Below, piece after piece: positions 22,107 through 24,978 of a DNA stretch of 24,978 bases. The stretch comes from a virus. The stretch is from positions 1 to 24,978 of the IMG/VR virus record IMGVR_UViG_3300035183_000925, one strand, 5' to 3'. Under the pieces are notes generated by a model. It was not told where the DNA came from. It was given only the letters and a program-made list of their open reading frames with translations, and ran no database searches. Position numbers and translations under genes: made by a program. Numbering within the stretch: position 1 is the first letter of the stretch; each line of letters begins with the position of its first letter.

Positions 22107-22135
22107 TTGACAAGATTCGAGGGACCTGATATATT
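22107..22135 (+). promoter_or_regulatory. sigma70-like promoter of the rightward operon
   Basis: TTGACA at 22107-22112, a 17-bp spacer, TATATT at 22130-22135. Transcription would begin near 22142, just before the ribosome site of the macro-domain gene, giving a very short leader. This is the best promoter in the window. Confidence 0.7.
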
Positions 22136-22157: not shown

Positions 22158-22595
22158 ATGAAAGAAACCCTAGGGGATTTATGGGAGTATCATGATGCGG
22201 GATGGTGGGTCGGAATTCCGACGAACGGCCATATCCGCGCCGACGGGAAAGCGACCATGGGCGCCGGAATCGCGGCGCAAGCCGCGGCGCGGTACCCGGA
22301 GTTGCCGCGCCTTCTCGGGGCGCATTTGCGGGCGCTGGGAAACCGATTATTTACGGTGGAGTACTTACGTATCGCCACTATCCCCACCAAGCATCATTGG
22401 TGGGACCCGGCCGATCTTGATTTGATCGAGCAATCCGCGCTCGAGCTCCGGGATTGGCTCGATAAGCATCCGGATATCCGCATCGCCATCCCGCGATTAG
22501 GCTGCGGGTGCGGGCGGCTCGAGTGGAAAAATGTGCGGCCGATCTTATCCCCGATCTTGGATGATCGGGTGATCGTGGTAAATTTATCTAGATAA
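22158..22595 (+). CDS. macro-domain protein (ADP-ribose binding / hydrolase-like)
   Basis: A 145-residue stand-alone macro domain, first gene of the rightward operon. It shows the ADP-ribose-binding features of the ALC1/TARG1-like branch: PTNG near 21-24, DGKATMGAGIA near 29-39, PTKHHWWDPADLDLI near 76-90, and the loop RLGCGCGRLEW at 113-123. Such proteins bind or remove ADP-ribose, or process ADP-ribose 1''-phosphate. Phage versions may counter host ADP-ribosylation or NAD-based defences or serve in tRNA-end or NAD metabolism; which is unknown. The start ATG 22158 follows GGGAGG, and the sequence upstream in frame is the control region. GC is lower than in the late genes. Confidence 0.88.
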   Translation: MKETLGDLWEYHDAGWWVGIPTNGHIRADGKATMGAGIAAQAAARYPELPRLLGAHLRALGNRLFTVEYLRIATIPTKHHWWDPADLDLIEQSALELRDWLDKHPDIRIAIPRLGCGCGRLEWKNVRPILSPILDDRVIVVNLSR

Positions 22596-22876: not shown

Positions 22877-22925
22877 CTTATGATCGTGAGCGGTGATAAA
22901 TCATAATCAACCATAAGGAGGAATC

Positions 22926-23210
22926 ATGGAAAAAGGAGGAACCATGGAAATAGGCAACTGCAACCGATGCGGGGAATACGAATTGGGATGCGTCTGTCTC
23001 GAATGTGATGCGTGCCGGGTCCCGCATGCGCCCTGGGAAGATCCATCCTGCGACTGCTGGTTTTGCGAGAGATGCGATCGATATTACGAAAAATTCGAGA
23101 AATGTCCGTGTTGGTACGAAGAGCATGCGGAGGAGGCGAGGCTCGATGAGTTGGAGGCGTTGTACGGGAAATGGTATGATCTTAATGGTCTCAAGCGTCA
23201 TTGGTTATAA
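22926..23210 (+). CDS. cysteine-rich zinc-binding-type protein 1
   Basis: A 94-residue protein with 12 cysteines in a regular frame: C12xxC15, six residues, CxCxxCxxC at 22-30, 11 residues, CDCWxCxxC at 42-50, nine residues, CxC at 60-62, then an acidic helix and a basic end (LKRHWL). Twelve Cys would fit three four-Cys zinc sites, as in zinc-ribbon or treble-clef clusters. Two starts are possible: ATG 22926 behind AAGGAGG and ATG 22944 behind AAAGGAGG; the near-duplicated start regions (GGAGGAATCATGGA and GGAGGAACCATGGA) are notable. The same framework recurs in two further genes of the operon. Function unknown; protein- or nucleic-acid binding is likely. Confidence 0.8.
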   Translation: MEKGGTMEIGNCNRCGEYELGCVCLECDACRVPHAPWEDPSCDCWFCERCDRYYEKFEKCPCWYEEHAEEARLDELEALYGKWYDLNGLKRHWL

Positions 23211-23232
23211 TAATAATCACCTAGGAGGAATC

Positions 23233-23427
23233 ATGTACATCAAAAACATTACGCTGGCGCTGTTGTTATTATCGATCTTGACGGGATGCACACTATCGAA
23301 CGGAATCGTAAAAGATGTCCGCAAAAACGCTACCGGAGAGCTCATCATCACGAAATGCGATATCAAATATTTTTCTCTTTATGTCATGGTAGCGGACGAG
23401 CGGAATTGCCGCGAGGAGGTACGATAA
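23233..23427 (+). CDS. small lipoprotein
   Basis: A 64-residue protein with a lysine-bearing, then hydrophobic, signal (ITLALLLLSILTGC) and a clear lipobox LTGC at 16-19, so Cys19 should be lipidated and the mature part is about 46 residues, facing the periplasm or outer membrane. The start ATG 23233 follows AGGAGG. The stop overlaps the next ATG (TAATG), pairing it with a tiny membrane peptide. Phage lipoproteins of this size include outer spanins and superinfection-exclusion proteins; the mature part is not Pro-rich, which argues against a typical spanin. Confidence 0.82.
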   Translation: MYIKNITLALLLLSILTGCTLSNGIVKDVRKNATGELIITKCDIKYFSLYVMVADERNCREEVR

Positions 23428-23579
23428 TGCTGATTTTCATCATCATGATTCTCTTGGGGCTCGGATATTACGATAATCTGCAGCATGCGCGAGAAGCGGA
23501 GCGGAATAAGATTCTATCGGCATGCGAGTCGGATCATGAATATAAGGTCATAAAAAATGTGCTGGCCCGAGTACAATAA
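23427..23579 (+). CDS. tiny membrane protein (50 residues)
   Basis: Begins at ATG 23427 overlapping the lipoprotein stop, with GAGG a few bases upstream. Residues about 2-14 are hydrophobic (LIFIIMILLGLGYY), followed by a charged helix (NLQHAREAERNKILSACES). It would be a single-pass membrane peptide. With the lipoprotein it may form an envelope pair; a membrane-anchored helix next to a lipoprotein is the gene order of two-component spanins, though both are short. Confidence 0.68.
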   Translation: MLIFIIMILLGLGYYDNLQHAREAERNKILSACESDHEYKVIKNVLARVQ

Positions 23580-23608
23580 TAAAATAATCAATCGATAAAG
23601 GAGTCACC

Positions 23609-23896
23609 ATGTCTTGTAGAACCGTTAGCACCGGGGCTTATCATGCCCTCTATGATTGCCGTTGCATTACATGTTCGGATTGCGGAAAGGATCATGATCC
23701 GGATGATGATAAATCCATTAAGATATGCCACATCTGCGGCCTCGAGTACTGCGACGAGCATGGCAAGTGCGAGTGTATTATTTGTACCGCATGCGGCGAA
23801 TTATGCAATCCGATGGAAGGAGTCTCGTGCGATTGCTGGCATTGCGAGAGATGCGATGAGGTTTGTCGGGAGGGGGAGTCGTGCAGCTGTGGATAA
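23609..23896 (+). CDS. cysteine-rich zinc-binding-type protein 2
   Basis: A 95-residue protein with 20 cysteines. Its C-terminal half repeats the framework of protein 1: CxxC at 40-43, CxCxxCxxC at 54-62, 11 residues, CDCWxCxxC at 74-82, nine residues, CxC at 92-94. The N-terminal half has an extra CxCxxCxxC at 17-25 and an acidic stretch (HDPDDDKS), so it looks like an extended version. DNA coding CWxCERCD is almost identical to protein 1, pointing to duplication. ATG 23609 follows AAGGAG. No enzyme motif; a metal-binding adaptor or substrate peptide is possible. Confidence 0.8.
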   Translation: MSCRTVSTGAYHALYDCRCITCSDCGKDHDPDDDKSIKICHICGLEYCDEHGKCECIICTACGELCNPMEGVSCDCWHCERCDEVCREGESCSCG

Positions 23897-24010
23897 TTAT
23901 GTTACCGAAACGAAACTACGATACGGTACCTAAGTGGTACTGCGTGTTGCGTAAATGAGACATCTTACCGGTATGCCGCGGGTAGACGATATCGGCGGCT
24001 AGGAGGCCAT
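23897..24010 (+). other. 114-bp gap with a small hairpin
   Basis: CGGTACC and GGTACTG around loop TAAGT form a 7-bp hairpin (one G-U pair) near 23924-23942; the gap ends with the AGGAGG ribosome site of the amidoligase gene. No clear promoter or gene is seen. Confidence 0.4.
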
Positions 24011-24978
24011 ATGACACGGGATATGCGGGAGCCATGCGGGCTATGTGGTGATCCGTTCGCCGCGTGCCGGTGCGGAAATTGTGGCGGATGCGGTATGGCT
24101 TATGATCACGAGGAAGGCCCCCAATGTGATTGCTGGTATTGCCCTTATTGTGACGGTACCTATCGTGATGGAGCTTTATGTCTTTGTTACTACCGCGGAG
24201 ATTTGCTGCCGCATTCGGCGAGAGCCGAAGAGTTTTTGGAATTCCACCCTTCTCCATATGATGATACCGTACTTTACTTAGGCGTGGAGTTGGAGGTCGA
24301 ATGCGTCGGCAAAAATGGTCAAGACGACACGCTGGACGATCTGCAGGACAGCGGGGAGCTCAATAAGTGGATCATCGCAAAGCGTGACGACAGCTTGATC
24401 GACGGTGTCGAGGTCGTGTCCGCGCCGTCGACGCTCGATGTCCATCGGGACAAGTGGGGGACTGTCCTGAAGCATCTTCGGAGGCATGCCATTTCGTGGA
24501 CGACGCCGACCACGGGAATCCATATCCACTTATCCCGATCATTTTTCTCCAAGCTCGACATAGCCAAATTCGTGGCGTGCATCAACGCCATCGGGACCCG
24601 ACCGTACATCATCGGTCTTGCCGGGAGATCGTCACCGGAGTACGCGGCCTTATCCGGCAAACGCTTGATCGAGTTACTGGATCACTCCGATAGACATACC
24701 GCGGTAAACTTGCGCCGGGAGAATGTAATCGAAGTGCGGATCTTCAAGGGCACGTTGAACCTGCGGCATCTGCTGTCCGATCTTGAATTTTGCCACGCGT
24801 TGGCGCATTGGGTCAAACTCAATTCGCTGGCCGAATGCGGCGATTGGGGAGCCTTCATGCGGTACGTCGAATCCCAAGGAAATTCGTACGCGGAGTTTCT
24901 CGCGTACATGGAGAAAATCCGGCCGAAAATACTCGAATTGAAAGCCGTCGATCTGGAGGCGTTAAGCAAGCGCCCGTT
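24011..24978 (+). CDS. cysteine-rich module fused to amidoligase-like domain (C-terminus cut by window edge)
   Basis: A 322-codon frame runs off the right edge. Residues 9-59 repeat the cysteine framework of the two small proteins: C9xxC12, six residues, CxCxxCxxC 19-27, 11 residues, CDCWxCxxC 39-47, nine residues, CxC 57-59. The rest resembles the putative amidoligase family, a glutamine-synthetase-like fold predicted to form amide or peptide bonds with ATP: LGVELEVE 90-97, RDDSLIDGVEVVSAP 125-139, TGIHIHLS 168-175 and NLRRENVIEVRIFKGTL 233-249, covering the expected Glu, His and Arg active-site positions. ATG 24011 follows AGGAGG. Likely an enzyme that modifies a protein, peptide or cell-wall-like substrate, with the metal module recruiting partner or substrate. 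Confidence 0.85.
   Translation, partial: MTRDMREPCGLCGDPFAACRCGNCGGCGMAYDHEEGPQCDCWYCPYCDGTYRDGALCLCYYRGDLLPHSARAEEFLEFHPSPYDDTVLYLGVELEVECVGKNGQDDTLDDLQDSGELNKWIIAKRDDSLIDGVEVVSAPSTLDVHRDKWGTVLKHLRRHAISWTTPTTGIHIHLSRSFFSKLDIAKFVACINAIGTRPYIIGLAGRSSPEYAALSGKRLIELLDHSDRHTAVNLRRENVIEVRIFKGTLNLRHLLSDLEFCHALAHWVKLNSLAECGDWGAFMRYVESQGNSYAEFLAYMEKIRPKILELKAVDLEALSKRP

Follow-up and report, generated by a model that had tools for sequence, protein, structure and literature searches.

Two free copies of a cysteine-rich module beside a module-bearing amidoligase in a T7-like podovirus

A phage contig from IMG/VR carries, in a row of small genes, three copies of one cysteine-rich module, two as free small proteins and one fused to an amidoligase-like enzyme. 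Which system do these genes belong to, and what could a phage gain from making the module without the enzyme? We analyzed the entire virus record (24,978 b, hereafter the window) and compared the locus with its counterparts in other viral contigs.

The phage and its small-gene operon

The window comes from a T7-like podovirus. The head-tail connector, tail tubular, and internal virion proteins are coded on its minus strand, and a set of small genes runs rightward from 22158 to the contig end, 3' of a strong promoter-like site that is likely the start of a rightward early operon. No close relatives of the phage were present in the collections searched, and among its kin recovered through the portal protein (best, 43%), no amidoligase, module, or amidotransferase was found in any of 80 loci. 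The features discussed below are the following.

22107 to 22135, plus strand: putative sigma-70-like promoter (TTGACA-17-TATATT, TG before the -10), 11 of 12 consensus matches, predicted from the consensus
22926 to 23210, plus strand: gene 1, free 12-Cys module protein of 94 aa (alternative start at 22944 with its own ribosome-binding site), identified by ORF, ribosome-binding site, spacing, and paralogy
23233 to 23427, plus strand: small predicted lipoprotein of 64 aa with a signal-like N terminus ending in LTGC, from sequence (LPAM_1 below cut-off)
23427 to 23579, plus strand: protein of 50 aa with a single hydrophobic stretch at the N terminus, from sequence
23609 to 23896, plus strand: gene 2, free Cys module protein of 95 aa with 20 Cys, identified in the same way as gene 1
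24011 to 24978, plus strand: amidoligase gene, 322 aa read, truncated at its 3' end where the contig stops (PF12224, 25.5 bits, curated cut-off 22; PHROG 16683, E 2e-22)
24035 to 24187, plus strand: compact 12-Cys module, N-terminal part of the enzyme, identified by Cys spacing and paralogy
24260 to 24976, plus strand: predicted glutamine-synthetase-fold catalytic domain with conserved GxExE, DxS, GxHxH, N, and ExR, from alignments, an AlphaFold model, and structure matches

The first gene of the operon (22158 to 22595, plus strand) codes for a macro domain similar to the N-terminal region of the antitoxin DarG. It matches DarG in PADLOC (E 3e-15) and, below the cut-off, in NCBIfam (E 4e-14), as well as PHROG 335, named phosphatase (E 1e-28), and is a possible phage-borne anti-DarT factor. 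Between the divergent transcription units, at 21643 to 22000, lie A/T-rich short tandem repeats, one frame of which reads YRIPVYRIPVY. Two ATGs in the same frame, separated by 18 b, stand at the start of gene 1 (22914 to 22946), and a AAGGAGGA-like site precedes each of them. The predicted lipoprotein and the single-span protein (23233 to 23579, plus strand) separate the two free Cys genes, and a location of both in the envelope would be in keeping with an operon that serves superinfection exclusion.

Three paralogous modules, one of them on an amidoligase

The initial annotation had described three genes of one operon with an identical 12-Cys framework. The genes are there, with the ORFs of all three module copies intact and a good ribosome-binding site 5' of gene 1, gene 2, and the enzyme gene, and all three, on the same strand, share CxCxxCxxC-x11-CDCWxCxxC-x9-CxC. 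The identity is exact in gene 1 and the enzyme, where the Cys intervals (3, 7, 2, 3, 3, 12, 2, 3, 3, 10, 2) agree throughout, but for gene 2 it must be reduced to a conserved core: the spacing is exact from CxCxxCxxC onward, the leading CxxC is 10 residues away instead of 6, and there are eight Cys beyond the shared twelve. The Cys core of gene 1 (22959 to 23111) is followed by a charged helical tail, and that of gene 2 (23726 to 23890) is accompanied by extra N-terminal Cys-pair units and a C-terminal end SCSCG. The window holds no fourth copy.

We tested paralogy by keeping the Cys fixed and shuffling the other residues, scoring the 41-residue core of the three pairs with BLOSUM. The pair scores were 31, 12, and 24, against shuffle means near -30 (p = 5e-5, 8e-4, and <5e-5), and because the similarity outside the cysteines far exceeds that of the shuffles, the modules are paralogues, as their proposed grouping into one family of metal-binding look had implied. 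Core DNA identity among the copies is only 50 to 54%, so the duplications are old and a recent duplication is ruled out; all 12 Cys have been kept in the three copies despite this age.

The framework divides into CxxC-x6-CxC, CxxC-x11-CxC, and CxxC-x9-CxC, with two residues between the units. Four Cys are the usual ligand set of a structural zinc, and the modules are best read, from this pattern, as three tandem CxxC...CxC zinc-knuckle units. The structure model of the module (three sequences) is weak, with a mean pLDDT of 63.7 and short hairpins at the unit ends, and comparison with solved structures by sequence or fold gave no convincing match. The Pfam LIM and zinc ribbon profiles did not match the window modules, nor was any zinc domain matched, and PADLOC and NCBIfam had no match for the Cys proteins or the enzyme.

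The fusion of the third copy to an amidoligase is confirmed. The enzyme scores above the cut-off of the phage branch of Amidoligase_2 (PF12224), and its AlphaFold model (pLDDT of 79.5 overall and >90 over much of the core) finds its best PDB matches in the YbdK carboxylate-amine ligase family and glutamine synthetases (E about 3e-6). Among viral protein structures it matches "Amidoligase enzyme" entries (E 1e-18), together with one BFVD entry named "LIM domain containing protein". Alignments of 8 and 30 sequences show little or no variation in the motifs GxExE, DxS, GxHxH, N, and ExR, and the catalytic domain is nearly complete, its last conserved column being followed by 26 aa versus 9 to 75 in relatives. 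Phage amidoligases are covered by PF12224 and PHROG 16683, 22302, 2443, and 7469; the 30 aligned family members all match PHROG 16683 and 22302, and 29 of them match PF12224, as 29 also do PHROG 2443. The enzyme is thus by profile and model a glutamine-synthetase-fold phage amidoligase, of predicted activity. With YbdK and the other carboxylate-amine ligases of the glutamine synthetase superfamily it shares the fold and the metal/ATP-site residues, but identity is 14% and different substrates are expected. No characterized close homologue of the enzyme was found.

A widespread amidoligase-amidotransferase system

The initial annotation knew of no phage system described as having such a layout, and here it has to be corrected. 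For phiEco32, the pairing of a phage amidoligase with a class II glutamine amidotransferase is reported to have been proposed in Iyer et al. 2009. Such pairs have been annotated in LUZ24-like phages, Marvin-like mycobacteriophages, and the OM43 phages MEP401/402, and in a LUZ24-like phage the two genes are one gene apart (PMC3890496). Moreover, fusions of a Cys array to an amidoligase are common in viral contigs, as we saw in a survey of at least 120 viral loci fetched with a degenerate pattern for the ExR block.

A profile confirmed the amidoligase in nearly all of the 120 loci listed. From these, 77 of the 94 non-redundant N termini long enough to judge contain at least 6 Cys and at least two CxxC, so the Cys-rich N-terminal array of the window enzyme is ordinary for the family and not new. 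The arrays of the family are mostly of the form CxxC-x~19-CxxC and longer, with up to 29 Cys; the window enzyme has only 12 N-terminal Cys, versus 13 to 29 in most aligned relatives. Pfam LIM matches 3 of 30 family members and the zinc ribbon models 1 of 30 each. Like these LIM or double zinc ribbon arrays, the window module places tandem Cys-pair units before the same catalytic domain, but it matches neither LIM nor DZR, and each of its shorter units closes with CxC.

A class II glutamine amidotransferase, detected with an HMM built from four phage proteins, is coded at most 1 kb downstream on the same strand in 85 of 104 listed loci with at least 600 b of downstream sequence, and the two genes mostly overlap or lie 4 b apart. 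Several of these amidotransferases match GATase_4, mostly just below the cut-off, and annotators have named the downstream partners glutamine amidotransferase. The window ends inside the amidoligase gene and contains no amidotransferase gene.

The amidotransferases often carry a Cys-pair module too, at the C terminus (36 of 63 partners, versus 6 of 503 other ORFs). Among the 63 scorable pairs, the module is found on 52 amidoligases and on at least one partner in 62 pairs, leaving one without it on both. At 45% identity the 63 pairs group into 22 clusters, and a single cluster contains all 10 that have the module only on the amidotransferase, which limits the independent support for module swapping. 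By its sequence pattern, the Cys-pair module is a regular part of the amidoligase-amidotransferase system and appears able to sit on either partner.

Two groups in the survey deviate from this pattern. One amidoligase clade (L139, L142, L156, L172, L178, L182, L186, L200, L202, and L204) seems to have lost most Cys of the N-terminal array, and its neighboring amidotransferases keep the Cys-pair module. The C. difficile phage-type amidoligases (L005, L164, L203, L237, and L250) have no Cys array and, where downstream sequence exists, no amidotransferase either; the next gene in L005 codes for an unrelated protein.

The compact framework and the free modules gave a very different result. Matches listed for CxxC-x11-CxCxxCxxC-x9-CxC in viral_contigs were all low-complexity or Cys-rich non-genic frames, and CDCW-based scans gave one antisense match in IMG/VR and 15 in 84,980 species genomes, none of them a module. 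CDCWxCxxCD and a variant with relaxed W hit nothing but short frames without relation to the module or a Cys-rich segment within a different protein, and no amidoligase was present in the loci fetched by these viral scans among the matches listed. There was no match in tblastn of the free modules against 50,697 phage records, and none in a related-locus search with the enzyme as query. Recurrent co-occurrence, which the initial annotation had named as support for a system, was found for the Cys-rich module and the enzyme, often with the module on the amidotransferase too, but not for free modules: small free Cys-array proteins stood beside the enzyme in one possible other case among the 120 loci listed (at least 120 were fetched). 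There, on a contig with two amidoligases and an amidotransferase, a 94-aa Cys-array frame lies between these genes (L193:4229-4510, minus strand), possibly the only other candidate free module in these loci. The compact framework and the two free copies are therefore the new part, as no real framework match was seen among the matches listed or in the 84,980 genomes.

The locus is thus a variant of a known but uncharacterized phage system. It resembles the described pairs in enzyme family and fold, in the N-terminal Cys-rich region, and in its place in a small-gene operon of a tailed phage, and differs from them in its compact CxxC...CxC array in place of long CxxC-x~19-CxxC arrays, in the two free module copies, and in that no amidotransferase is visible before the contig ends.

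What the free modules may do

Our preferred reading, to which we give a probability of about 0.45, is that this variant uses its zinc module in trans as well, in the role of adaptor or scaffold. The locus would be the start of an amidoligase-amidotransferase operon, with the amidotransferase gene probably beyond the contig end. The enzyme would use ATP to activate a carboxylate, which would then be joined to an amine or to ammonia, the latter supplied in relatives by the amidotransferase coded just downstream. As a three-zinc-knuckle array, the module may bind a protein, such as a substrate carrier, the amidotransferase, or neighboring enzyme molecules, and so bring enzyme, partner, and target together. 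Free copies would address this binding partner too, whether as adaptors, as subunits of a scaffold, or as competitors, and would set the place and strength of enzyme action. As for the target, passages of PMC10580990, PMC11318856, and PMC11253131 state, after Iyer et al. 2009, that in phiEco32 the two enzymes may alter the cell wall as protection against other phages, and a host cell-wall carboxylate changed to exclude other phages is the proposal most cited in the literature.

That the module belongs to the system and can sit on either protein fits working copies in trans. Several observations weigh against this reading: the window has no amidotransferase gene before the contig ends; free modules are almost never found beside the other family members listed, which leaves a general need for trans copies without support; the compact framework is unlike the long CxxC-x~19-CxxC arrays of the family and may not be homologous to them; the module model is weak and resembles no solved structure; the either-partner pattern comes from 22 clusters; and some members, those of the C. 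difficile phage group, have neither array nor amidotransferase.

The free modules could also be functionally unlinked to the enzyme. Phages commonly make small zinc proteins early, and genes 1 and 2 might be independent takeover proteins of this kind, for instance regulators binding host polymerase or nucleic acid, whose module reached the enzyme by domain shuffling. The array type, unlike that of other amidoligases, speaks for it, and the module region weakly matches an antitermination Q-like PHROG, but at E 0.044 that match is below significance. Since most members of the enzyme family carry a Cys array, the module on this enzyme is no accident, and the exact spacing kept in all three copies also argues against this alternative, which we regard as unlikely while taking it seriously.

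The free modules might instead be substrates, with the amidoligase recognizing its own module type and modifying them at the C terminus or on an acidic side chain, whether by amidation, aminoacylation, or conjugation. They share operon and framework with the enzyme's module, the positions E38, D43, and D51 of gene 1 are invariably acidic, and gene 2 ends with Gly directly after its last CxC. PafA and similar ligases with a glutamine-synthetase fold conjugate small proteins, which provides a precedent. The invariant acids may, however, simply belong to the fold, the C termini share no motif (HWL in gene 1, SCSCG in gene 2), and most relatives listed have no free module protein in reach, so the family needs no such substrate. 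Because most systems have no free module, this reading is less likely than an adaptor, scaffold, or competitor, and we consider it improbable.

Up to 20 Cys in 95 residues could also suggest metal stores, or thiol redox or iron-sulfur proteins, and not protein binders, and Fer4_3 gives a sub-threshold 4Fe-4S match (E 0.096). Its score of 14 bits against a cut-off of 27 rejects a 4Fe-4S ferredoxin identity, the Cys pattern resolves neatly into CxxC...CxC units, with Gly, Asp, and Trp conserved between them, and LIM and zinc ribbon models match some family arrays, all of which makes this option quite improbable. Least probable of all is a zinc-knuckle protein-conjugation or carrier-protein system, in which the free modules would be dedicated tags or carriers found by the amidoligase through its own module copy. 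As in Pup-PafA tagging, a glutamine-synthetase-fold ligase is coded near small proteins, but the window has no Pup-like protein or C-terminal motif and PafA is absent from the 50 best structural matches listed. The Pup system itself is rejected, as neither free module ends in GGE or GGQ.

In the literature, we found no paper establishing what the phage amidoligase-amidotransferase pairs modify, widespread as they are and named in many genomes. The survey adds to the two enzymes the Cys-pair module as a regular part of the system, and a phage that makes this module as free small proteins offers a handle on it, with the free modules as bait for the partner or substrate of the enzyme family.
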